Shown here piece after piece: positions 47,254 to 60,646 of a stretch of 64,000 bases of DNA. The notes beneath the pieces are model-generated. The model searched no databases, was not told the DNA's origin, and worked only from the letters and a program-made list of their open reading frames with translations. The first letter of the stretch is position 1. Every line of letters begins with the position of its first letter. The DNA comes from Lysobacterales bacterium 66-474 (GTDB lineage Bacteria; Pseudomonadota; Gammaproteobacteria; Xanthomonadales; Rhodanobacteraceae), in assembly GCA_001899805.1 (NCBI GenBank), contig MKWP01000015.1, positions 1 to 64,000 on the forward strand. The letters run 5' to 3'. The position numbers were made by a program, and so were the translations under genes.

Positions 47254-48726
47254 TCAAACATCCAGTGTCTTCAATCCCGCGACCAGTTCGCCCGCTGCGG
47301 CCTGCCCGTCGCCGTACAGCATGCGCGTGTTGTCGGCGTAGAACAGCGCATTCTCGATGCCGGCGAAGCCCTTGCCGCGCCCGCGCTTGATCACGATCAC
47401 GTTCTTCGCGTTGGCGACGTCGAGGATCGGCATGCCGTAGATCGGCGAGCTCTTGTCGGTGCGCGCGACCGGGTTCACCACGTCGTTGGCGCCGATCACC
47501 AACGCCACGTCGGTATTCGGGAACTCCGGGTTGATGTCGTCCATGTCCGCGATCAGGTCGTACGGCACGCCGGCTTCCGCCAGCAGCACGTTCATGTGGC
47601 CGGGCATGCGGCCCGCCACCGGATGGATGGCGAACTTGACCTTGACGCCACGCGCGATCAGCAGCTTCGCGAACTCCCAGATCTTGTGTTGCGCCTGCGC
47701 AACCGCCATGCCGTAACCCGGCACGATCGCGACGCGCTCGGCATAGGCCATCATCACCGCGGCATCGTTGGCGTCGATCGGTTTCAGCGCGCCGGCGATT
47801 TCCTGGCTCTCGCCAGCGCCGCCGCCTCCGCCGAAATTGCCGAACAGCACATTGCCCAGCGAACGGTTCATGGCTTTCGCCATCAACTGCGTCAACAGCG
47901 TACCGGCGGCACCGACCACCATGCCGGCGATGATCATGGCCTCGTTCTGCAACACGAAGCCTTCGAACGCCACCGCGAGGCCGGTGAAGGCGTTGTACAT
48001 CGAAATCACCACCGGCATGTCGGCGCCGCCGATCGGCAGCGTCATCGCGATGCCGAACACCAGCGACAACACGACGAACCCGACCAGCAAGCCCCATGCG
48101 AACGCGTGGCCTTCGATACCGGCGGCCAACGCGAGCGCGCCGCACACCACCGCGGCGGCGAAGATCGCCAGATTCACCCAGCGCTGCAGCGGAAACACGA
48201 AACGCCGATCCATCCAGCCCTGCAGTTTCGCGAACGCGATCAGGGAACCCGTGAACGACACCGCGCCGATCAGCACGCCGAGGAAGGCCAGCACCAGTTC
48301 CACCGGGCTCAGGTGCACCGCCACGTTCACCCACGCCTCGGGCTGGATCGGTGATGTATCCGGAACCAGCATCAACGCGGCATTGAACTTGATCAGCTCC
48401 ACGGCGCCGATCGCCGCCGCCGCGCCGCCGCCCATGCCGTTGAACAGCGCCACCATCTGCGGCATCGCGGTCATCGGCACGCGCCGGCCGACGATCCACG
48501 ACAACACCACGCCGACCACGATCGCGCCGATCATCAGGGGCAGGTTGTGCATGCCGGGCAGGAAGAACGTCGCGACGATCGCGGCGGCCATGCCGATGCC
48601 GGCCCAGATGATTCCGTTCCGCGCGGTGCGCGGCGAACTCATCCGTTTCAGGCCCCAGATGAAGAGTACGGCCGCGATGAAATAGATGGCCTCGACGACG
48701 GTGGGCATCCACGCAGGCAGGACCAT
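47254..48726 (-). CDS. pntB: NAD(P) transhydrogenase subunit beta
   Basis: This 490-residue protein has an N-terminal half with eight to nine membrane helices, including the proton-channel segment AFNGMGGGAAAAIGA-like FNGMGGGAAA, and a C-terminal NADP-binding domain with VAIVPGYGMAVAQAQHKI, FAIHPVAGRMPGHMNVLLAEA and GANDVVNPVA. It drives hydride transfer from NADH to NADP with the proton gradient. ATG 48726 overlaps the pntAB stop as TGATG; a GTG one codon up is possible. Its partner pntAA is 10.4 kb upstream instead of adjacent. Confidence 0.95.
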   Translation of the reverse strand: MVLPAWMPTVVEAIYFIAAVLFIWGLKRMSSPRTARNGIIWAGIGMAAAIVATFFLPGMHNLPLMIGAIVVGVVLSWIVGRRVPMTAMPQMVALFNGMGGGAAAAIGAVELIKFNAALMLVPDTSPIQPEAWVNVAVHLSPVELVLAFLGVLIGAVSFTGSLIAFAKLQGWMDRRFVFPLQRWVNLAIFAAAVVCGALALAAGIEGHAFAWGLLVGFVVLSLVFGIAMTLPIGGADMPVVISMYNAFTGLAVAFEGFVLQNEAMIIAGMVVGAAGTLLTQLMAKAMNRSLGNVLFGNFGGGGGAGESQEIAGALKPIDANDAAVMMAYAERVAIVPGYGMAVAQAQHKIWEFAKLLIARGVKVKFAIHPVAGRMPGHMNVLLAEAGVPYDLIADMDDINPEFPNTDVALVIGANDVVNPVARTDKSSPIYGMPILDVANAKNVIVIKRGRGKGFAGIENALFYADNTRMLYGDGQAAAGELVAGLKTLDV

Positions 48727-49028
48727 CACTTCTTCTCCCCTGCGGCCGGCTTGGACGTCTTGAACATTTCCAGCATTCGTTCGGTCACCACGTAGCCGCC
48801 CGCGACATTGCCCGCAGCGAGCAATACCGCGATCACGCCGATCGTGATTTCGACCGGCGTTTCCGCATGACCCAGCGCCACCATCGCGCCTACCAGCACG
48901 ATGCCGTGCACGAAGTTGGAGCCCGACATCAGCGGCGTGTGCAAGATGACTGGCACCCGACTGATGATCTCGTAGCCGGTGAATGCCGCCAACATGAAGA
49001 TGTACAGTGCAAGAAAACCGGTAATCAT
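48726..49028 (-). CDS. pntAB: NAD(P) transhydrogenase subunit alpha, part 2 (membrane)
   Basis: This 100-residue protein has three to four membrane helices (FLALYIFMLAAFTGYEII, NFVHGIVLVGAMVAL) and the family segment PVILHTPLMSGSNFVHG. In the three-gene version of the enzyme this subunit links the NAD-binding PntAA to PntB. It has its own GGAGGG before ATG 49028, followed upstream by only 98 bases to a divergent sigma gene, so a promoter must lie there or transcription of pntAB-pntB depends on read-through across foreign DNA. Confidence 0.93.
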   Translation of the reverse strand: MITGFLALYIFMLAAFTGYEIISRVPVILHTPLMSGSNFVHGIVLVGAMVALGHAETPVEITIGVIAVLLAAGNVAGGYVVTERMLEMFKTSKPAAGEKK

Positions 49029-50201: not shown

Positions 50202-50765
50202 ATGGCAAGGACCGCCGCCCCGTTGCTCGCGCTGTTCGCCGCCGCCGGCCTGTTGGCCGCGCCGCGTGCACTCGCGCAAACCACGGCGGCCATCCCGGCA
50301 CCTAGTGCGTCACGCGTGGCCGCAGGTATCGACAGCCCGAAGCAGCCCCTGGCATGGTCCAGCCTCAGCCCCTCGCAGCAACGCGTGCTCGCGCCCGTAC
50401 AGGACCAATGGGACCAGATGCACCCCGCGCGGCAACAACGCCTGGCCGAGCACGCGGATCATTGGGCGACCCTGCCGCCGCAGCGCCAGCAACAAATCCA
50501 CGAACGACTCACGCGCTGGGCCAACATGACCCCGCAACAACGCCAGCAACTGCGCGAAAACGCGCGCGCCTTCCATGACCTCACGCCCGAACAACGCGCG
50601 CGCGTCAGGGCCGCCTTCGAACGATTCCGTTCCCTGCCCCCAGACGAACGCAAGGCCCTGCGCGAACGCTGGCACGCGATGCCGCCCGCGCAACGCATGC
50701 GCTGGGCCGACGGACATCCCGGGCAGCCGCTACCCGCGCGCCCTCCCGGGCGCCGTGGCCATTGA
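50202..50765 (+). CDS. DUF3106 exported protein
   Basis: This 187-residue protein has a signal peptide ending near ALA-QT (about 25-26), and a mature part made of repeated helical units with the pattern W..L.P.Q...L....WA..P..QR, such as HWATLPPQRQQQIHERL and RWANMTPQQRQQLRENA and RAFHDLTPEQRARVRAAF. This is the DUF3106 signature. Function is unknown; such Pro/Gln helical repeats recall periplasmic sensors of the CpxP type. It closes the sigma/anti-sigma-like/DUF3106 unit. Confidence 0.8.
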   Translation: MARTAAPLLALFAAAGLLAAPRALAQTTAAIPAPSASRVAAGIDSPKQPLAWSSLSPSQQRVLAPVQDQWDQMHPARQQRLAEHADHWATLPPQRQQQIHERLTRWANMTPQQRQQLRENARAFHDLTPEQRARVRAAFERFRSLPPDERKALRERWHAMPPAQRMRWADGHPGQPLPARPPGRRGH

Positions 50766-50823
50766 GCGATCCATGGCATGCCCGGCAAGGATGACGCCGG
50801 AAACCGACCCCCGGGAACCACGT

Positions 50824-50853
50824 TTGACGCTGACAATTGCTCCACAGTAGGAT
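50824..50853 (+). promoter_or_regulatory. Sigma-70-type promoter candidate before the beta-sandwich gene
   Basis: TTGACG (50824-50829) and TAGGAT (50848-50853) are separated by 18 bases, and transcription would start about 35 bases before the chosen ATG. It implies that the three downstream genes form a unit separate from the sigma/DUF3106 trio. Confidence 0.45.
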
Positions 50854-50895
50854 GGCGGCCATCGAGTGGACTCCTGCAAGGGAGGCATGTCTTTC

Positions 50896-51717
50896 ATGAC
50901 TGCGACCCACGAGGTGACGGCGGCAAGGCCTTCGCTGCAATTTGCCTGCTCGCCCAAGACACGACTTTTCTTCACCGGCCCGCCGCAGGGACTGACCGGA
51001 TCGATTCCGCTTGTCAACACCAGCGACGGCAAGCTCAAACTGCGCAGCATCGGGCTCAAGTCGTCGTCGCTGAAGGGGGTCGCCAAGCTTCCCCTGAGCG
51101 AGATCCCCTTCTTCGCCAAGCTGTACCCGGGCGAACAAGCGGACATCCCGGGAACCATCGCGCTCGATTCGAGCACCCCGCCCGGACATCACACGTTCGA
51201 GGTCACCGTGGGCGGCACCACGGTGATGGCCGAGGCGCATGTGGAGGAAGTCGTCGATCTTCGCATGGCTCCTGCGCAGATCACGATCCTGGCCGGAAGC
51301 TCGCCCCACGTCACGCGCAGCTTCGTGGTCGAGAACGCCGGCAATGTCGACCTTCCGACCGGCGCGCAATGCGAGACGCCCATCCTCGATTCGAACGACA
51401 TCGCGTCCGCCATGGTCGCCGGCATCAACGATTCCGACAAGTCGACCGTCGAGGCCATGGTCAAGAGCATCCTTCTGCACTGGGGCGAACTGCACGTCGG
51501 CACGCTCGTCACCCGCCGTGATCCCATCGTCCTGCATCCCGGACAAAAACTTTCGGTCGATATCCATTTCGAGCTTCCTGCCACGTTGAAGCCGCTGCGC
51601 CACTACTGGGCGAACCTGCAGTTGTACAACGCGACACTGTTCGTCGACATCTACACCACCGCCAACTATGGCAGCAAGACGAAGCGTTCCGGCAAGGCCC
51701 AAGGGAGGGCGCCATGA
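50896..51717 (+). CDS. Beta-sandwich (Ig/NEW3-like) protein of unknown function
   Basis: This 273-residue protein has no signal peptide or membrane helix. Two tandem beta-sandwich-like halves are visible: about 10-115 (LTGSIPLVNTSDGKLKLRSI, LYPGEQADIPGTIALD, GHHTFEVTVGG) and about 125-255 (ITILAGSSPHVTRSFVVENA, LHPGQKLSVDIHFELP, HYWANLQLYNATLFVDIYT). The PG-then-alternating-strand signature recalls NEW3/COG1470 Ig-like folds. ATG 50896 follows GGAGG by ten bases; ATG 50887 is too close to the SD. It overlaps the next gene by ATGA. Function is unknown. Confidence 0.7.
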   Translation: MTATHEVTAARPSLQFACSPKTRLFFTGPPQGLTGSIPLVNTSDGKLKLRSIGLKSSSLKGVAKLPLSEIPFFAKLYPGEQADIPGTIALDSSTPPGHHTFEVTVGGTTVMAEAHVEEVVDLRMAPAQITILAGSSPHVTRSFVVENAGNVDLPTGAQCETPILDSNDIASAMVAGINDSDKSTVEAMVKSILLHWGELHVGTLVTRRDPIVLHPGQKLSVDIHFELPATLKPLRHYWANLQLYNATLFVDIYTTANYGSKTKRSGKAQGRAP

Positions 51718-52232
51718 ACAAAGGTGGATCCACCCCCAGCATCCCGAACCCGTGGGCATTCAAGATCGGCGTCAATGGCGCGATCGACGCCGACCTGGAC
51801 AACATCCATATCGCCGAGATCGCACCGATCAACACCACCTCGAAAGTGGACAGTGACTCGAAACTCGGCCTGAAAGTCGAACCACTGGATCTGAAAATCG
51901 AACCACTGAAAGTCGACAGCAATTCCGTCACGGCATCATCCATCGACCTGAAGCCGGTTGCCGTCGATTCCTGCCAGACGATCAAGATCGCGCCGTTGCC
52001 GCCCATGCGCATGGAGCAACCGTACTCGCAGCATTTCGGCATCACCTTCATGGGCGTGGAACTGTTCGGTTTCACCAGTTCCGGCAAGTACGACACGTTG
52101 CTGAACGATCCGCCGCACGCCGGATCATGCTGCGGCCAGCATGTGCACGCCGAGCGCGCGTCGACGTCCGGCCGGCCCGAACCCACCGTCGCACGCAACG
52201 ACAACGGGTTGCGGGTCCGCATCGGCAAGTGA
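51714..52232 (+). CDS. Short-repeat protein of unknown function
   Basis: This 172-residue protein is not recognised. It has no signal peptide. Its middle (about 25-90) consists of alternating charged and hydrophobic residues with near-repeats of the form K-V-D-S and V/I-E-P-L (KVDSDSKLGLKVEPLDLKIE, then PLKVDSN). That is the pattern of a stacked beta structure. A second part has a SGKYDTLLNDPPHAGSCCGQ segment with a CC pair and several His. It starts inside the stop of the previous gene and ends 31 bases before the Cys-rich gene, whose SD is strong. Confidence 0.65.
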   Translation: MNKGGSTPSIPNPWAFKIGVNGAIDADLDNIHIAEIAPINTTSKVDSDSKLGLKVEPLDLKIEPLKVDSNSVTASSIDLKPVAVDSCQTIKIAPLPPMRMEQPYSQHFGITFMGVELFGFTSSGKYDTLLNDPPHAGSCCGQHVHAERASTSGRPEPTVARNDNGLRVRIGK

Positions 52233-52263
52233 AGGGGCGGAACCTTTTCCGAGGAGACGCATC

Positions 52264-52974
52264 ATGCAAAATACCCGCTTCGCGCAAACCAGGGGTCCGG
52301 AAGTCTTCTACGGCTACTGCCACGACAGCGGCAGGATGCGGATGATGGACTACGACGATTTCATGACCAACCTGCAGCAGGGATACTCCAACCTGTACCA
52401 GGTTCCGGGCGGCACGGCCGCCTATTCGAATCCGGTTTCCAATCCAGTTTCCAGTTGGCCGGCTTCGAACTTCAGGCGTCGCCAAGGCTGCGATTGCCAC
52501 GCTCAGCAGGATGATTGCGGCTGCAACTGCTGCATCCGTTGCGCGGATGCCGTCCAGTACGCCTACTGCGGCGAGACGCGCAAGATTCCCGTCACCTTTG
52601 ACAACGACTCGCGCCGTGAACGCCAGGTCACCGTGCAGCTTGGCGAGTTCATCACCGACGGCGGACGCCCCCTCGCATGGAAGGCTGCACTCTCGGAGAC
52701 ACAATTCACCCTGTCTCCCTGCAGCCAGAAGACTGTCCTCATCACGGTCAACATCGACTGCCGGCAAGACCAGCCAACCAGGAAGGATGCCACCCGAAGC
52801 GACGCCCGCGCGGAACGTGCCGCCCCCGCTGCGGTTGAATCCTGCACGGTCGGTTACGCCAGGATCAACGCGGACGGCTGCCTCATCCGCCCGCTGATCG
52901 TTGCGGTGGCCGTCCTGCCCGATCATTGCGGGGCACGGAAGATCGGCTGCCTTTGCGGTGGCTGCTGCGACTAG
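52264..52974 (+). CDS. Cysteine-rich protein (18 Cys) of unknown function
   Basis: This 236-residue protein has no signal peptide. It has 18 cysteines, seven of them inside CDCHAQQDDCGCNCCIRC (about 75-92) and five in CGARKIGCLCGGCCD at the C-terminus. Between them lies a beta-sandwich-like stretch (KIPVTFDNDSRRERQVTVQL, FTLSPCSQKTVLITVNID). Spacing suggests metal binding or disulphide packing. GAGGAG lies seven bases before ATG 52264. Its TAG stop overlaps the stop of the convergent polyketide synthase through the palindrome CTAG. No family is recognised. Confidence 0.7.
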   Translation: MQNTRFAQTRGPEVFYGYCHDSGRMRMMDYDDFMTNLQQGYSNLYQVPGGTAAYSNPVSNPVSSWPASNFRRRQGCDCHAQQDDCGCNCCIRCADAVQYAYCGETRKIPVTFDNDSRRERQVTVQLGEFITDGGRPLAWKAALSETQFTLSPCSQKTVLITVNIDCRQDQPTRKDATRSDARAERAAPAAVESCTVGYARINADGCLIRPLIVAVAVLPDHCGARKIGCLCGGCCD

Positions 52975-55900
52975 GCGCGCTGCGCACGCAGGATCCTGTA
53001 CTGCCAGGCGCCGCTGTTCATCTGCTCGTACACAGCGGAGCCCGGCACGGCCAGGAAGTTGTCGATCATCGCGTCGTGCCCGCCGAATGCCTGCGCGCGC
53101 GTGGCGGCGACATCGTCGCAGGAGGCCAGCACGTTCGACGTGATGTCCCGCTCGCTCAGGATCTTGAACCCCAGCGGAAGCAGCAGCGCGCGCACTTCCA
53201 GCCACCGCTCCACCGGCAGCAGGTCCGTGTAGAGGAAAACCCCCTTCTTCCTGATCACGCGGCCCACCTCGCCGTAGAACGCGCGCAGATTCGGATACGT
53301 GTGGGACGACTCGACGTTGGTGACGACGTCGAAGGTCCAGTCCTTGAACGGCATGTTCTCGGAATCGCCGACCTCGAACCTGGTTCCGTGCCCGTGTGTC
53401 CTGCGGCAGAAGGCGATCGCTTCCGGCGACAGGTCCATGCCCACGGCCTTGGCCAGCAGGGTCTCGGCCATCAACGCCACCATTCCGCCGCGCCCGCAAC
53501 CCACGTCCAGCACGCGTTTGCCGTTGATCGCGGTATCACCGATCAACTCGAACGCCAGTCGGACCGAATTGCGATTGAATACGCGTTCCGGTATCTCGAA
53601 GCGGGCGTCGTCACCGGCGCCCTTGCTGACATATCCATAGTTGAGGAAGAACGACGCTTCCCCGACCCCCGAGTTCTGCAAACGCCGGCTCACGTCATCG
53701 TAGAAGTCGCGATAGCTCTGTTTCGCCGCCTTGCCCGGCGCATCGCCCCGCAATTCCGTCGCCTCCACCTGCTCGAACGGAAGCCCGGCGGGTTTGGCGT
53801 CTGCTTCGCCCGCCTGGGCTTTCGCGACGATCACCGCGAGTTCGCCGATGCTCGGCGCCTGGAACAGCTTCAGTACCGGCAACTCGATCTGGAATCTTTC
53901 GCAGATTTCCGCGGCCACCTGCGCCGCCAGCAGCGAGTGTCCGCCCAGATCGAAAAACCGGTCGTGGACACCGACCGCGTCGATGCCCAGTTGCCTTCCC
54001 CATATCTCGGCCAGGCCACGTTCCACCTCGTTGCGGGGTTCGACGTAAGCCGTCGCAAGGCTCGGCCGCGGATGCAACTCCATCGCCGAACCATTCGCGG
54101 CTGCGGTTTGCTTGTGCTGGACCCATGCCTGCAGGCGTTCCTCTAGATTCACCGCGACGATCGCCCGCGAACCCACCGGGGATGCCAGCAACCGCAACAA
54201 CGCGTCGCCTCCTTCCCGGGGATTGATCGCCAACGGCATGCTCACGTTCTGTGCTTCGGCGGCGTTGTCCCACGCATCCCAGTCGATGCTCAACCACCGC
54301 TCGCCTCGCTGAAGCGCCAGCACATCCAGCAGCGCATTCACCGCGGAGTACGCAGCGAGCCCAAGGCCGCCCAGGATCGACGAGATCGACGAGTGCAACA
54401 CCCATCGCGCCGGCTCGCGTCCCTGCATGGCCTCCATCACGTTGTAGAGCCCGCGGATTTTCGGCGAAAACTGCGCTTCCATGACCTCCATGCCCGTCTC
54501 CGCGGCGGAGGCAAACGCCGCGGCATCGATGCGCGCCGCACCGTGCACGACCATGTCGATCTTGCCGAACCGTTGGACCGCGAGGTCGACGGCCTCCATG
54601 ACTTCAGCGGCCTTGTTCAGGTCGGCACGCAGCACCATCACGTCATCGCGCGTCTCACGCATCGCCGCGAGCCGCTTCAGGATCTTCCGCTGCCCTTCCG
54701 AAACGGACGGATCTTCGCTCGCTGCCGCCCATTCCGGCGGAATCGGCAGCGCCGTCCTGCCGAGCAGCACCAGTCGCGCCCCGATGTTGGCGAACATCGT
54801 TTCGGCGAGGTGAAGCCCCATGTGCCCGAGCCCCCCCGTGATCAAGACCACCGGCGACTCCGGCAGATCCAGCGGCGGCTTCGAGGCACTGGTGGCCATC
54901 GGCACGAACGTTTCGACGAAACGGTTCCCCGAGCGCATGGCCAGCGCCGGATCAGGCAAGCCCGCCGCCAGTTCCGCAGCGAGCATCGCCGGCAGGTTCT
55001 TGTCGCCGTCGACATCCGCATGCGCAATCCTCAAGCCGGGGTGTTCCTGGGGCAACACACGTGCCACTCCCGCACCGAGGGCACGCGCAGGGTCCAGCGC
55101 ATCTCCCGGATGCACCAGGGCGGTGCCGCGTGCCACGAACAGCATCGGAAGAGGACGCACCGTTTGCTGGCCGCTGAGCGCGTGGGCCAGCCGCATCGGA
55201 CCCAGCAATGCCGGCACCGCCGCGTCGTCAAGCACCGTGTTGGCCGGGGACGCCGCATTCCAGCAATACACGACGCCCGCCAGTCTCTCTTCCCCGGCAC
55301 ACACGTCCGCCGCCATGCGGCGGTAGTCATCCGCCTTGGCAGGATCGATTTCATATCCTCCGCGGGTCTTCTTGAATCGGTTGCCCCGCCTTGCCGTTAT
55401 CGGTTTTGCACCTTGCGCACGCAGGGCGGCAAGCATGGATGGTGCGGGCGTTCCCGCATCATCGAAGACAAGTATTTTCCTGCCGGCGATCGCACCGGGG
55501 TCGGTCTTCAATGCCGCAGTCCCGTTCCACACCGCCTTGTACATCCACTTCGAAGTATCGCGCAGCTCCGCTTCCCTGCTCTTCGCGTCGGGCAGCGCCC
55601 CCACCCAATAACTGTGCCGTTCGAACGGGTAAGTGGGCAAACTCACGCGGCGCCTCGGCTCGGTTTCGTGAAACCGCTGCCAATCCGCGGCGACCCCGGC
55701 AGCCCACAGGTCGCCCAGGGCAGCCAGCATCGTGCGCGTGTCCGGCGTCGTGTTCTCCGCCGTCGGCAGCGAATTGACGCATCCCGCCTTCATTCCCGTG
55801 GCTGTCGCCGTGGCCTTGACGAAAGTCGTCAGTGCATTGCCCGGCCCGACTTCCAGATAGACGGGATCCTTTCCGGCCAGTGCCTCCTGCGCGATCCCCA

Positions 55901-58298
55901 GCAGTCCGTCGCCGAAGCGCACGGCATGGCGCAACTGCGCGACCCAGTACGCCGGCTGCGCCACGTCGTCCCCGGCAGGTTTGCCCTTCAGCGTTGCCAT
56001 GAACGGGAGCTTCGGCGCGCGCAACTTCACCGATGAAAAAACCGCTTCGAATTCGGCGAGGATCGGGTCCATCATCGACGAGTGGAACGCGTGCGAGGTG
56101 TGCAACCTGCGCGTCGCGATCGATTCCGCCGCCAGCGCCTTCTCGACACGATGGACCGCAGGCGTCGGGCCCGAGAGAACCGAAAAGCCGGGGGCGTTGA
56201 CCGCCGCCAGCGAGACCTTGCCCGTGGCGAACCTGGCCACCGCATCCGCACCCGCGAGCACGCCGAGCATCGATCCGTGCGGCAATGCCGAGATCAGTTG
56301 GCCACGCCTGGCGATGACGGCCAGTGCATCGTCCAGCGTCATGACGCCCGCAAGCGTCGCGGCAACGTATTCGCCGACGCTGTGGCCGATCATCATCGCG
56401 GGACGGATGCCCCAGGACAGCCACAACCTGGCGAGCGCGAAACTCACGGTGAACAGGATCGGCTGCGCCCACTTCGTGTCGCGCAGGGTTTCGGCTGCAT
56501 TCCCGCGGGAACGCGCGGCCGGGAAGATCACTTTCCTGATGTCGTGGCCGATGTGTTTCTTCAAATACCGGGCGCAGCGGTCGATGGTCTCCCTGACGAC
56601 AGGCTCGCTTTCGTACAGCCCCTTCGCCATCCCCGGATACTGCGAGCCCTGCCCCGGGAACATGAACACGACCGGGCGTTCGGAACCGCAGTTCGTGACC
56701 GTTTGCTTTGCAACGGACCTCAACGCATCGATGGCGCCACGGCGATCATCCGCCGCAACCACCGCGGCCCTGCGGAACGCGAAGGCCTTTCGACCGAGAT
56801 GCAGCGTGGCAGCCGCGTCCGCCAGGCCAACCTCCGGATGTCGTTCCAGGTAATCCGCCAGGCGCCTTGCCGAGGCATGCAGCGCTGGCTCGGTCCGTCC
56901 CGAAAGGGTCATGGCCTGGAACGGCCTTCCCGCCGTGGCCTCGCTTGGCCGGGGAGCCTCCTCGAGCACGATGTGGGCATTGGTTCCTCCAACGCCGAAC
57001 GAGCTGACACCCGCGCGCCGGGGTGTTCCGTTGCGGGCCCACTGTTCGAGCTTTTGGGTCACATAGAACGGGCTCGCCGCAAGATCGATCCCCGGGTTCG
57101 GCGACGTGTAATGCACCGTCGGCGGAATCGCTGCATGCTCGATCGCGAGCACGGCCTTGATCAGGCCCGCGATTCCCGCTGCGCACGACAGGTGTCCGAA
57201 GTTCGACTTCGCCGAACCGATGCCGCAGAAACCACGCTTGTCGCTCGCCTCGCGGAAGACCTCCGTCAAGGCTGTGATCTCGATCGGATCGCCAAGGATC
57301 GTTCCGGTTCCGTGCGCCTCGACATAACCGATCGACGACGGGGAAATCCCCGCCATCCGGTACGCGGAACGGATGGCCGCCGACTGTCCGCTCACGCTGG
57401 GCGCCGTGTAACCGACCTTGTCGTTGCCGTCATTGTTGATGCCGGTGCCGAGGATCACCGCGCGGATGTTGTCGCGATCGCGCAGCGCGTCGTCCAGCCG
57501 TTTCAGCACGATCAGTCCCACCCCGCTTCCGACGATGGTGCCCTGTGCCCTTGCGTCGAACGGCCGGCAGTGCCCGTCCGGAGAAAGGATCGAGCCGGCG
57601 GTGTAGAAATAACCTCCACGCTGCGGAACCCGCACCGTCACCCCGCCGGCCAGGGCCATGTCGCAGCGGCGCTGCTGCAGGCTCTCGCACGCCATCGAAA
57701 CGGCCACCAGCGACGTCGAGCACGTCGTCTGCACGGCCACGCTTGGCCCCTTGAGGTTCAGCCGGTACGAGACCTGGGTGCAGAGATGGTCCTTGTCATT
57801 GGTCACCATCAACTGCATGCCGTCGATGTATTTCAGCGCGTCCTGATTTTGATAGAGGTGGTAGAGGTAGGTACTCAGCTCCGACCCGCCGAACACGCCG
57901 ATCGCCCCCGCAAAGGCTTCCGGATCGTAGCCGGCATCCTCCAGCGCCTCCCACGCGGTTTCCAGGAACAGCCTGTGCTGCGGATCGGTCAGCGTGGCAT
58001 CGCGCGCGGAAAAGCCGAAGAACTGCGCATCGAATTTGTCCACGTCGTCGAGGACCGGCGACGCGTTCACGTAGCCGGGCAGCCGCGAGATGTGGTCGGG
58101 CACGCCGGCGGCACGCATCTCCTCCTCGTCGAGGACGCAAATCGACTCGACGCCTTGGGCGAGGTTGTTCCAGTATTCGTCGAGGTTGTTGGCGCCGGGA
58201 AAACGTCCCTTCATGCCGATGATGGCAATGGGTTCCTCATGCGCCATCACGCCTTTCGCATCTGCCACCAGGCCATCGGTCGCGCGCGAACGAGTCAT
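52971..58298 (-). CDS. Single-module type I polyketide synthase KS-AT-KR-ACP-MT
   Basis: This is a 1775-residue multidomain enzyme. KS (about 20-450): C193 in TTCSTSLV, H329 in EAHGTGT, H369 in KSNFGHL. AT (about 540-890): GHSVGEY with S640; HAFH at 736-739 points to malonyl-CoA. A structural half leads into KR (about 1145-1345): TGGLGHMG, Ser about 1304, Y1317 and N1321, so active. ACP (about 1425-1495): LGGHSL with S1455 for the phosphopantetheine. A SAM methyltransferase (about 1570-1740) follows: VLDVGCGRGG and NVESSHTYP, like phthiotriol-type O-methyltransferases. DH, ER and thioesterase are absent, so release is unexplained. No phosphopantetheinyl transferase is nearby. It follows the 58314 gene by 15 bases. 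Confidence 0.93.
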   Translation of the reverse strand: MTRSRATDGLVADAKGVMAHEEPIAIIGMKGRFPGANNLDEYWNNLAQGVESICVLDEEEMRAAGVPDHISRLPGYVNASPVLDDVDKFDAQFFGFSARDATLTDPQHRLFLETAWEALEDAGYDPEAFAGAIGVFGGSELSTYLYHLYQNQDALKYIDGMQLMVTNDKDHLCTQVSYRLNLKGPSVAVQTTCSTSLVAVSMACESLQQRRCDMALAGGVTVRVPQRGGYFYTAGSILSPDGHCRPFDARAQGTIVGSGVGLIVLKRLDDALRDRDNIRAVILGTGINNDGNDKVGYTAPSVSGQSAAIRSAYRMAGISPSSIGYVEAHGTGTILGDPIEITALTEVFREASDKRGFCGIGSAKSNFGHLSCAAGIAGLIKAVLAIEHAAIPPTVHYTSPNPGIDLAASPFYVTQKLEQWARNGTPRRAGVSSFGVGGTNAHIVLEEAPRPSEATAGRPFQAMTLSGRTEPALHASARRLADYLERHPEVGLADAAATLHLGRKAFAFRRAAVVAADDRRGAIDALRSVAKQTVTNCGSERPVVFMFPGQGSQYPGMAKGLYESEPVVRETIDRCARYLKKHIGHDIRKVIFPAARSRGNAAETLRDTKWAQPILFTVSFALARLWLSWGIRPAMMIGHSVGEYVAATLAGVMTLDDALAVIARRGQLISALPHGSMLGVLAGADAVARFATGKVSLAAVNAPGFSVLSGPTPAVHRVEKALAAESIATRRLHTSHAFHSSMMDPILAEFEAVFSSVKLRAPKLPFMATLKGKPAGDDVAQPAYWVAQLRHAVRFGDGLLGIAQEALAGKDPVYLEVGPGNALTTFVKATATATGMKAGCVNSLPTAENTTPDTRTMLAALGDLWAAGVAADWQRFHETEPRRRVSLPTYPFERHSYWVGALPDAKSREAELRDTSKWMYKAVWNGTAALKTDPGAIAGRKILVFDDAGTPAPSMLAALRAQGAKPITARRGNRFKKTRGGYEIDPAKADDYRRMAADVCAGEERLAGVVYCWNAASPANTVLDDAAVPALLGPMRLAHALSGQQTVRPLPMLFVARGTALVHPGDALDPARALGAGVARVLPQEHPGLRIAHADVDGDKNLPAMLAAELAAGLPDPALAMRSGNRFVETFVPMATSASKPPLDLPESPVVLITGGLGHMGLHLAETMFANIGARLVLLGRTALPIPPEWAAASEDPSVSEGQRKILKRLAAMRETRDDVMVLRADLNKAAEVMEAVDLAVQRFGKIDMVVHGAARIDAAAFASAAETGMEVMEAQFSPKIRGLYNVMEAMQGREPARWVLHSSISSILGGLGLAAYSAVNALLDVLALQRGERWLSIDWDAWDNAAEAQNVSMPLAINPREGGDALLRLLASPVGSRAIVAVNLEERLQAWVQHKQTAAANGSAMELHPRPSLATAYVEPRNEVERGLAEIWGRQLGIDAVGVHDRFFDLGGHSLLAAQVAAEICERFQIELPVLKLFQAPSIGELAVIVAKAQAGEADAKPAGLPFEQVEATELRGDAPGKAAKQSYRDFYDDVSRRLQNSGVGEASFFLNYGYVSKGAGDDARFEIPERVFNRNSVRLAFELIGDTAINGKRVLDVGCGRGGMVALMAETLLAKAVGMDLSPEAIAFCRRTHGHGTRFEVGDSENMPFKDWTFDVVTNVESSHTYPNLRAFYGEVGRVIRKKGVFLYTDLLPVERWLEVRALLLPLGFKILSERDITSNVLASCDDVAATRAQAFGGHDAMIDNFLAVPGSAVYEQMNSGAWQYRILRAQRA

Positions 58299-58313
58299 CC
58301 TCGGTATCCCTTC

Positions 58314-59315
58314 TCATTTTTCCTTTTCCGGAACCGGATCGGTCGCGACGATCCTCAGTTGCAGCTCGACGCGACGGTCATCCGCGCCCGTGACGTACAG
58401 GAACCCGATATACGGCACGCCCACTTCGTAGCGGTCCGCGTCCAGTTGCAGCGAGAGCGTGACCGTCGATTCTTCCCCGGGCTCGAGTTCCAGCAACTCC
58501 GGCGTGATCTGCACCTTGGGCGCGAAGGCGGGGCCCACACCATCCATGCGGCGTACCTCGGTCGCGACGTAGCGCACCGCCATCCGCGTCCGGGTCGTGT
58601 TCGATATCGTGAACGACTGGAAGGCCGCGCCACCTGCTGGTGCCTGGAGGGCGACGGCTGTCACGGGTTCGCTTGCGGATTCCTCGGCCAGGGCGAGAAT
58701 TCCGCTCAAATACGCGTCCTCGTAATCACCACGCAACGCGTCCAGTTCCTGCATCAGGTGCAGGTACAGCTGTCCGGCGTCGCGCATGTAAAACGGAAGC
58801 CGGCGCGACATGTCTCCGGCAACTTTTTGCTGGACGTCTTCGGGAGACAACTCTCCGCCGGCGACCTGGTCCAATTGCCTGCGGTAAGCCTTGAGCGCCT
58901 CCGCATTCAGCCTGCCCGCATATTCGGCGTACTGTTCGAACCAGCGCTCCGGAGTTTCCGGCTCGAATATCGGCGGGGGAACCTGCTCGGCCACCGCGCC
59001 CGCGTCCGCGTACGCCGCATTGCGCTTGTTCAGTTCGGCGAACCGGCCCATGAACGCGGCACAAACCGCCCTCAGGCGCTCGCTGTACAGGGCGCCGTGG
59101 CGTTGCACGAAGCGGGGGTAGTACTCCTGGAAGACCGTGGCCGGCAAACGCCCGGACGCGACGCTTTCGAGCGTTTGCTGATAGAGCCTCAGCGTCCTTT
59201 GCGCATTGGCGAGCGAACCGGACAGGAATCGCGCATACAGGCCGGACCAGTTGGGCTCACTGCCATCGGGCCGCGGGGCGGAATCCTCGACGTGCTGTGC
59301 GGCGCTTGTGACCAC
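58314..59315 (-). CDS. Helical plus beta-sandwich protein upstream of the polyketide synthase
   Basis: This 333-residue protein is not recognised. The first about 210 residues are helical, with repeated Tyr/Leu heptad-like patterns (GLYARFLSGSLANAQRTLRL, SRRLPFYMRDAGQLYLHL). The last about 110 form an Ig-like sandwich (FTISNTTRTRMAVRYVATEV, LLELEPGEESTVTLSLQLD, GVPYIGFLYVTG). There is no signal peptide. I prefer GTG 59315, because GAGG lies six bases upstream; the frame is open to a GTG at 59357 without a good SD. It is the first gene of the PKS unit. It may be a scaffold or carrier for the product, but this is inference. Confidence 0.65.
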   Translation of the reverse strand: MVTSAAQHVEDSAPRPDGSEPNWSGLYARFLSGSLANAQRTLRLYQQTLESVASGRLPATVFQEYYPRFVQRHGALYSERLRAVCAAFMGRFAELNKRNAAYADAGAVAEQVPPPIFEPETPERWFEQYAEYAGRLNAEALKAYRRQLDQVAGGELSPEDVQQKVAGDMSRRLPFYMRDAGQLYLHLMQELDALRGDYEDAYLSGILALAEESASEPVTAVALQAPAGGAAFQSFTISNTTRTRMAVRYVATEVRRMDGVGPAFAPKVQITPELLELEPGEESTVTLSLQLDADRYEVGVPYIGFLYVTGADDRRVELQLRIVATDPVPEKEK

Positions 59316-59377
59316 TGCCCACCTCAATCCCGGAGGATCTGGTTTCGTGACCGCCACAAACCATGCAATTCCACCCC

Positions 59378-59393
59378 TGACGCAACGCCGTCA
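59378..59393 (-). promoter_or_regulatory. Inverted repeat at the PKS-unit promoter region
   Basis: TGACG-N6-CGTCA forms a 5-bp inverted repeat about 60 bases before the first gene of the leftward unit. Its upstream half is part of TTGACG, the same hexamer used in the facing promoter at 50824. It could be a -35 element, a regulator site, or chance. The surrounding 59316-59472 holds no gene. Confidence 0.35.
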
Positions 59394-59472
59394 ATCTATC
59401 AAAAAACGGGTCCGCAAGCCAACTCCAGGGCCGTCGTTCGAACCCACCCGGCTCTGGCAACCGGGCACATCA

Positions 59473-60576
59473 TCACGCCTTCCCGAACACCACCTCGCCG
59501 TCGCGGGCGACGCAGGTTTTCGCAACCAGCTCGTCTTCGAAGTCCGGCTTCCATGCGCCGTCCACGATCACGAGTTCGCTGAAGTGCGCGAGGTTGCGCG
59601 CGTACATTTCCGAGGCGTGCAGCGGTGCACCCGAGGGAAGGTTCAGCGGCCCGATGATGGTGACGCCGTTGCGTTCAATGCGCTCGCCGGGTTGCGTCGC
59701 CTCGCAGTTGCCGCCACCTTCGGCGGCCAGGTCGACGATCACCGCGCCGGCCTTCATGCCGTCAACCATCGCCAGCGGGACGATCCTGGGTGACGGCCGT
59801 CCCGGCACCGCAGCGGTGGTGACGATCACGTCCACGGTTTTCACGTGCTCGGCCAGCTTCGCCTGCTGCGCGGCGCGCTCCTCGGCGGTGAGTTCCCGCG
59901 CGTAGCCGCCCTGCCCCGCGGCGTTGACACCGAGGTCGAGGAACTTCGCACCCAGCGATTCGATCTGCTCGCGGGTTTCCGGGCGCACGTCGAAACCTTC
60001 CACCATCGCGCCCAGCCGCCGCGCGGTGGCGATCGCCTGCAAACCTGCCACGCCGGCGCCGATCACCAATACCTTCGACGGACGCAGCGTGCCCGCGGCG
60101 GTGGTCAGCATCGGGAAGAACTTGGGCGCGGCCTCGGCCGCGATCAGCATCGCGCGGTACCCCGCGACCGCGGCCTGCGAAGACAACACGTCCATCGCCT
60201 GTGCGCGGGTGGTGCGCGGCAACAGCTCCAGCGAGAACGCGGCAAGCTTGCGCTGCGCGTATCGCGCAAGGCGCCCGGCGGCGTTGTGCGGATGCAGCGA
60301 TCCGATCAGCGCCGCGCCTTCCTTCATCGCGGCGATGCGATCATCCGCGGGCGGCTGCACGCACATCAATATGTCGGCCTGCGCAGCGACCGCATCCGCA
60401 TCGGCGAAATCGATGCCGGCATACGTCGCATCGGGAAAGCCCGCGCGCCCGCCCGCGCCGCGCTCCAGCAACACCCGCATGCCGCGCGACGCGTATTTCT
60501 TCGCCGTTTCCGGCGTCACCGCGACGCGGCGCTCCCCGTCGGCGGTTTCGCGCAAGGCTGCGACGGTGATCGGCAT
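59473..60576 (-). CDS. pntAA: NAD(P) transhydrogenase subunit alpha, part 1 (NAD-binding)
   Basis: This 367-residue soluble subunit has RETADGERRVAVTPETAKKY near the start and VLVIGAGVAGLQAIATARRLGA near residue 175 as NAD Rossmann motif. The mobile loop RETREQIESLGAKFLDL-type region follows (FDVRPETREQIESLGAKF), and VDLAAEGGGNCEAT is conserved. GAGGAG lies seven bases before ATG 60576. The start, stop and motifs look intact. It should be followed by pntAB and pntB, but those are 10.4 kb downstream, beyond the PKS unit, on the same strand. Confidence 0.95.
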   Translation of the reverse strand: MPITVAALRETADGERRVAVTPETAKKYASRGMRVLLERGAGGRAGFPDATYAGIDFADADAVAAQADILMCVQPPADDRIAAMKEGAALIGSLHPHNAAGRLARYAQRKLAAFSLELLPRTTRAQAMDVLSSQAAVAGYRAMLIAAEAAPKFFPMLTTAAGTLRPSKVLVIGAGVAGLQAIATARRLGAMVEGFDVRPETREQIESLGAKFLDLGVNAAGQGGYARELTAEERAAQQAKLAEHVKTVDVIVTTAAVPGRPSPRIVPLAMVDGMKAGAVIVDLAAEGGGNCEATQPGERIERNGVTIIGPLNLPSGAPLHASEMYARNLAHFSELVIVDGAWKPDFEDELVAKTCVARDGEVVFGKA

Positions 60577-60646
60577 GGTGGTTCTCCTCGGGTCGACGCG
60601 GCATCGTAACGCAAAAGCAGCCAAGCACGGCTGTTAAACTGGATGG

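Follow-up and report, generated by a model that had tools for sequence, protein, structure and literature searches.

A four-protein module found with a one-module polyketide synthase and with other lipid-type enzymes in scattered bacteria, and its possible role as a coat or scaffold

A locus in the genome of Lysobacterales bacterium 66-474 raises the question of why a large polyketide synthase (PKS) should be encoded together with four small proteins of no recognised family. The locus lies in a stretch of 64,000 nucleotides, here called the window (contig MKWP01000015.1 of assembly GCA_001899805.1, positions 1 to 64,000, forward strand), and consists of five open reading frames (ORFs) in two convergent units, P1-P2-P3 on the plus strand (50896-52974) and PKS-P5 on the minus strand (52971-59315). 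The five neighbouring genes are one conserved unit, relatives of the four small proteins also occur in compact operons from which the PKS is absent, and the four proteins may form a coat or scaffold for an interchangeable client enzyme. A first-pass annotation, made from the letters of the window, had described the two units as a KS-AT-KR-ACP-MT synthase and four proteins without a family, and both the ORFs and searches of Pfam and NCBIfam agree with that description. The five genes are as follows, Ig standing for immunoglobulin.

50896-51717, plus strand: P1, 273 aa, Ig-like beta-sandwiches and a helical insert (both predicted)
51714-52232, plus strand: P2, 172 aa, containing short repeats and, at the C-terminus, the conserved motif QPYSQHFG...MG.E..GF..SG
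52264-52974, plus strand: P3, 236 aa, starting with ATG at 52264, 18 cysteines and, by profile, one Ig-like domain
52971-58298, minus strand: PKS, 1775 aa, KS-AT-KR-ACP-MT
58314-59315, minus strand: P5, 333 aa, predicted to have two long helical hairpins and a PapD/MSP/ASH-like Ig domain

The stop codons of P3 and the PKS overlap by four bases (52971-52974), as do the end of P1 and the start of P2, and only 15 bases lie between the start of the PKS gene and the P5 stop. A scan of named bacterial genomes recovered 15 loci with relatives of the PKS, among them loci of Luteimonas marina, Luteibacter yeojuensis, Acidobacteriaceae bacterium KBS 96, acidobacterial and proteobacterial metagenome-assembled genomes (MAGs) and an Anaerolineales MAG; eight of these relatives (L010-L017) are 66-84% identical to the window PKS. 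All four small proteins are present in the same arrangement in six of the eight (L010-L014 and L016), and since the proteins of these six loci are 43-84% identical to those of the window the five ORFs are not a product of chance. The identity of P2 ranges from 54% to 81% across seven relatives. A further complete cassette, L045, brings the total to eight with the window included, all with the same genes, order and convergence and drawn from gammaproteobacteria and Acidobacteriota. The other two close relatives are on short contigs. L017 starts inside the PKS gene and has P1, P2 and P3; L015, on a contig of 6.2 kb, has none of the four small proteins next to its PKS, and because the roughly 1 kb past the PKS, where P3 would be expected, holds none of them, its arrangement must be a different one. 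The genomes of both L015 and L017 carry P5 on another contig, and altogether P5 was found in eight of nine PKS-relative genomes, the exception being the L018 genome, with a PKS that is 42% identical. L018-L024 were not counted as cassettes, their PKS identity being no higher than 42% and the small proteins being absent. The five proteins have diverged in parallel, the identities to the window of the small proteins ranking as those of the PKS do (Spearman coefficients over six relatives of 1.0 for P1, 0.94 for P2, 0.94 for P3 and 1.0 for P5; L017 and L043 were omitted from some alignments). The proposal of the first-pass annotation that the four proteins and the PKS co-occur as one unit is thus upheld in six of the eight close relatives.

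Pfam identified KS, AT, KR, ACP and methyltransferase domains in the 1775-aa protein, with intact motifs, which places it among the type I modular PKSs, and the AT motif HAFH is that of the malonyl type. No thioesterase was found in Pfam, in NCBIfam or by inspection of motifs. The methyltransferase region resembles the NCBIfam models for phthiotriol dimycocerosate and fatty-acid O-methyltransferases, with scores far below both cut-offs. From the domains alone, the product would be a beta-hydroxy or O-methylated acyl compound; the domain order would suit a 3-hydroxy- or 3-methoxy-acyl compound or a methyl ester. The modular type I PKS clusters of cyanobacteria contain KS-AT-KR-ACP modules that are about 40% identical, with similar domain order and motifs, but in contrast to such clusters the window cassette lacks a non-ribosomal peptide synthetase (NRPS), a transporter, a regulator and any separate tailoring gene, and it does have the four small proteins that accompany most of its close relatives. 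Thus it does not belong with ordinary PKS gene clusters, as only P1, P2, P3 and P5 recur with the PKS. The earlier observation that transporter, regulator and tailoring enzyme are lacking holds good for the cassette as a set of genes, though the PKS carries a methyltransferase domain of its own. Plasmid records gave 966 matches to the PKS, all below 60% identity and the best among those listed at about 40%; the one record inspected (H1) sits in an NRPS/PKS cluster.

The four small proteins are also encoded where this PKS is missing. Compact P2-P1-P3-P5 operons without a PKS were found at six loci (L042, L043, L044, L090, L091 and L092), and a P2-P1-P3 trio, also without a PKS, at L053. L042 and L043 are near-identical, and there are therefore five independent full sets. 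The homology of each family in these sets was checked by profile and by pairwise BLAST; the P3 of L092 was missed by the profile and matches the P3 of L091 at E 5e-48, and the C-terminal motif of P2 is common to distant copies. Identities to the window proteins are low, at 25-26% for P2 (26% in L042, 25% in L043), 21-33% for P3, 20-22% for P5 and 25-46% for P1. L044 is a second, PKS-free set of the Anaerolineales MAG, on another contig. It shares that MAG (G404) with L015, which is of the PKS type, so that either two systems exist in one cell or the bin is mixed.

These sets are rare. A wider P1 profile, with E values up to 0.01, matched four of 299 genomes, namely those of L053 and the window and two marginal ones (G1138 and G1090). 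Further samples searched with P1 profiles gave two of 115 genomes, adding one P1 at a contig end, and five of 150 and two of 109, with nothing new that was clear (G491 in the former sample was marginal, as were both matches, G1594 and G1663, in the latter). A wide P2 profile matched five of 202 genomes, comprising the window, one marginal genome (G1692) and three new loci, L090, L091 and L092, every one of which has the full set. All the marginal genomes were left aside. P1 was detected in three of 233 genomes of the family of the window, and P5 in one of 200 genomes of the order; in the phylum of L012 P1 was detected in five of 347 genomes, two of them those of L042 and L043 (G631 and G719), and in the phylum of L015 P5 in one of 301.

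The first-pass annotation had bound the four proteins to the PKS and had named their wide occurrence without it as evidence to the contrary. They do occur without it, rarely and not widely, and a self-contained PKS system is ruled out by the PKS-free modules at L042-L044 and L090-L092 and the trio at L053. As each of the four has relatives in loci that lack the PKS, the unit is better described as a four-protein module with a client enzyme than as a PKS system with helpers. Judged by gene content, the four-protein set would be the constant part; what varies would be the client, in most cases an enzyme that makes a hydrophobic product.

What the module accompanies when the PKS is absent was read locus by locus. 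In L092 (5435-9780) a gene for polyhydroxyalkanoate (PHA) synthase lies directly downstream of the P2-P1-P3-P5 operon. Its product matches PF07167 at E 3.9e-55 and the NCBIfam class II model at 594 bits (below the cut-off of 855), the C, D and H residues stand at the expected places by eye, and no ordinary phasin gene was noticed, also by eye, in the L092 stretch; such adjacency to phaC was seen in this one of the seven PKS-free loci. In L091 (4422-6843) the module adjoins a polyprenyl synthetase (PF00348, 5.2e-27) and a geranylgeranyl reductase family protein (199 bits, cut-off 159), and the highest score of the prenyl synthase is to the model for the family 2 encapsulin cargo prenyl transferase (79.5 bits, cut-off 450). 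The neighbours in L042, L043 and L090 are a DUF362 protein, a short-chain dehydrogenase/reductase (SDR) like HpnA and OleD (below the cut-offs of those models), an SRPBCC-like protein (with Pfam matches below cut-off in L042 and absent in L090), a protein of 409-411 aa and a PAP2 phosphatase, those of L043 having been read from ORFs near-identical to L042. Between L042, from an acidobacterium, and L090, from a gammaproteobacterium, these neighbours are 34-69% identical (DUF362 39%, SDR 54%, SRPBCC-like 51%, the 409-411-aa protein 69%, PAP2 34%), whereas the module proteins of the same two loci are only 20-37% identical. The shared set (2549-12639 in L042, 7035-16400 in L090) looks like an undescribed lipid-type pathway that travels with the module. 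The DUF362 protein of L090 (10104-12611) has an N-terminal tail of about 120 residues, rich in lysine and threonine and resembling the histone H1 type, that was not seen in L042; L042 has an ABC1 kinase in addition. The L053 trio stands beside an alpha/beta hydrolase, a GMC oxidoreductase (nearest to cholesterol oxidase) and a DyP peroxidase, while L044 has no evident client, its neighbours being only what we take to be phosphofructokinase-like ORFs. At E 1e-6 the PKS cassette loci yielded no counterpart of the client genes tested, the L042 SRPBCC-like protein (by tblastn) among them.

Structure prediction gave a model for P5 (mean predicted local distance difference test score 79, predicted template modelling score 0.55), with helices over residues 23-212 and strands over 219-325. 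The Ig domain is matched in fold by PapD, VAP-MSP and ASH domains, and the matches listed cover that domain. The P1 model is of low confidence and supports no more than the description Ig-like, so that the first-pass assignment of beta-sandwich and helical parts to two of the proteins holds for P5 and only loosely for P1. Ig-like matches just short of the Pfam cut-offs were found in the PKS-free loci, for P1 of L053 (NPCBM_assoc, 24.2 bits against 24.4), P3 of L091 (FixG_C, 23.2 against 25.6) and P3 of L090 (fn3_5, 23.8 against 27.6). The P3 and P5 families have related Ig regions (E 1.4e-5 and probability 80 when the profiles are compared), and their profiles cross-match as well; P2 was not Ig-like by any search made. 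None of the four window proteins has a Pfam or NCBIfam family above cut-off, and a search of the sequences of solved structures with the P1 profile, the P5 profile and the P5 helices returned nothing significant.

Taking neighbours and fold together, P1, P2, P3 and P5 may be a cytoplasmic coat or scaffold for an interchangeable client, a reading to which we would give not quite even chances. The module would build a coat or scaffold with either the hydrophobic product or the clustered enzymes of a swappable client at its centre. The P5 helices, together with the N-terminal stretches of P3 where the PKS is absent, would rest on the hydrophobic body or form bundles with one another, the PapD/MSP-like Ig domains of P1, P3 and P5 would interlock as an outer layer, the repeats of P2 might act as a tie and the cysteines of P3 might provide metal or disulfide cross-links. 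The client in the window, a one-module PKS, would add two carbons to an acyl starter, and the beta-keto group would be reduced and the product methylated at a hydroxyl or carboxyl. The scaffold, sheath or storage body suggested by the first-pass annotation is strengthened by the presence of a PHA synthase among the other clients. A stronger version is more doubtful and is offered as tentative: that the four proteins are an unrecognised bacterial organelle or granule coat of helix-plus-Ig type around a swappable core (PKS, PHA synthase, prenyl-lipid or oxidative lipid pathway), the PKS version of which spreads between phyla as a cassette of 8-9 kb.

Among other explanations, the chief rivals are a filament-like scaffold and a lipid carrier complex. 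Some VAP-MSP, PapD and ASH domains act in polymers and assemblies, and the likeness of the P5 Ig domain to them, with the repetitive character of P2, would also suit a filament or cytoskeleton-like scaffold of MSP/PapD domains that organises soluble enzyme complexes with no hydrophobic body; however, most neighbouring enzymes make hydrophobic products, of which a general scaffold has no need, and we regard this as unlikely. It is likewise unlikely that the locus is a plain minimal biosynthetic cluster and the four proteins soluble carriers or chaperones of a lipid-like intermediate. An SRPBCC-like gene (START superfamily, weak in Pfam) does accompany the PKS-free module in L042, L043 and L090, the fold is MSP-like and, by analogy, VAP MSP domains recruit lipid-transfer proteins, but four mutually conserved, structural-looking proteins exceed the needs of a carrier and the L042 SRPBCC-like protein went unmatched in the PKS cassette loci searched.

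The low identity of the PKS-free copies to the window proteins (20-46%) might suggest that the four proteins serve the PKS product only, and that in the PKS-free loci widespread Ig-like domains have been put to other, unrelated purposes. This is improbable and largely refuted, as all four families recur in compact operons with significant E values, the non-Ig-like P2 among them. A chaperone-usher fibre, secreted or on the cell surface, would account for the PapD-like fold matches, which cover a single domain of the two-domain chaperone fold, with PapD_N in Pfam below cut-off. No usher or pilin gene lies within the five-gene cassette. Simple hydropathy of the first 40 residues, a method used here without a positive control, indicated no N-terminal signal peptide in 57 proteins (L043 was omitted from all four families, L044 from P2, and L017 and L053 from P5). 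A secreted pilus was rejected on this basis and a fibre of this kind is very improbable.

Among the known systems that come close to the proposed coat or scaffold are PHA granules (carbonosomes, with PhaC and phasins) and bacterial lipid inclusions, which likewise have small amphipathic-helix proteins beside the synthase of a hydrophobic product, and in L092 the module adjoins PhaC itself. Actinobacterial lipid-inclusion proteins are the subject of PMC10699116. Most module copies found here differ from PHA granules in having a PKS as client, and no phasin or granule-protein family was matched by the module proteins in Pfam or NCBIfam, the helical parts having been searched up to E 10. To our knowledge, neither Ig-like domains nor the four-protein set is part of a known granule coat. 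With the MSP/PapD/ASH assemblies (VAP, CEP192, PapD and ciliary central-pair proteins) P5 shares 12-17% identity among the matches listed, but its Ig domain is attached to two helical hairpins, and the protein is bacterial and, it appears, cytoplasmic. Encapsulins and bacterial microcompartments are similar in concept, a swappable enzyme being enclosed by a layer of protein; none of P1, P2, P3 and P5 matched an encapsulin, microcompartment or gas-vesicle shell family in Pfam or NCBIfam. No description of the four-protein set was found among the titles and abstract openings listed by searches of the open-access PubMed Central literature, which is weak evidence of its absence from print, subscription journals and preprints lying outside that collection.

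In the window the PKS version is an insertion. Two further features of the window are as follows.

50824-50853, plus strand: putative sigma70-like promoter (TTGAC, 19 nt, TAGGAT) for the P1-P2-P3 unit, close to the left end of the conserved cassette
50766-59472, no strand: inserted segment between two convergent genes, one DUF3106-like (ending at 50765) and one pntAA-like (ending at 59473)

The sigma70-like box lies 71-72 nt 5' of the P1 start in all nine cassettes examined (L017 included) and occurs in nine of 2000 random 120-mers, the pattern having been composed after inspection of the sequences scored with it. The flanking genes, which we take from their sequence to be pnt genes and a DUF3106 gene, are adjacent, with no P1 or P5 between them, in all 12 testable loci of the same genus; there were 15 strong loci, from which the window itself and two at contig ends (L072 and L075) were excluded. 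At L067, one of the 12 empty sites, the two genes are separated by about 675 bases of other sequence. All 16 genomes of the genus yielded the pntAA-like gene, one of them only as a weak paralogue. An empty-site genome, G202, is apparently the genome of L010, where the cassette sits elsewhere, beside a gene that is presumably phosphoketolase-like. Among 423 flank ORFs of the nine cassettes, compared at E 1e-10 (those of L010, L014 and L017 being short), matches joined only L013 and L045, apart from two weak ones (27-30%) to a single L016 ORF; L013 and L045 share flanks and therefore represent one insertion event. The cassette moves between sites. In the window itself pntB, pntAB and pntAA, as read by eye (47254-49028 and 59473-60624), are separated by a sigma-factor-like unit and the cassette; the sigma-factor-like unit adjoins pntAA in relatives too, while the cassette does not.

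No transposase or integrase was noticed inside the five-gene cassette. The window proteins P1, P2, P3 and P5 had no match in PADLOC or PHROGs; a phage origin was rejected on the latter result, and a defence origin with none of eight proteins matching PADLOC. Peptide patterns from the P1 profile, the L042 409-aa protein and the PKS, which catch mainly close relatives, yielded no confirmed relative on viral contigs. In plasmids nothing matched P1 of the window or of L042, P1, P2 and P3 of L053, P3 of L092 and L090 or the L042 409-aa protein.

Bacterial compartments and granules of few kinds are known: microcompartments, encapsulins and gas vesicles on the one hand, bodies of PHA, polyphosphate or lipid on the other. 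A coat would give four unnamed families a function that can be tested and would offer a reason for a PKS that stands outside an ordinary cluster, and the five-gene unit is compact enough to be expressed in a laboratory host for direct observation. If the coat reading is true, this rare and widely scattered set of four families would be a further kind of bacterial compartment or, failing that, a granule coat of a new class.
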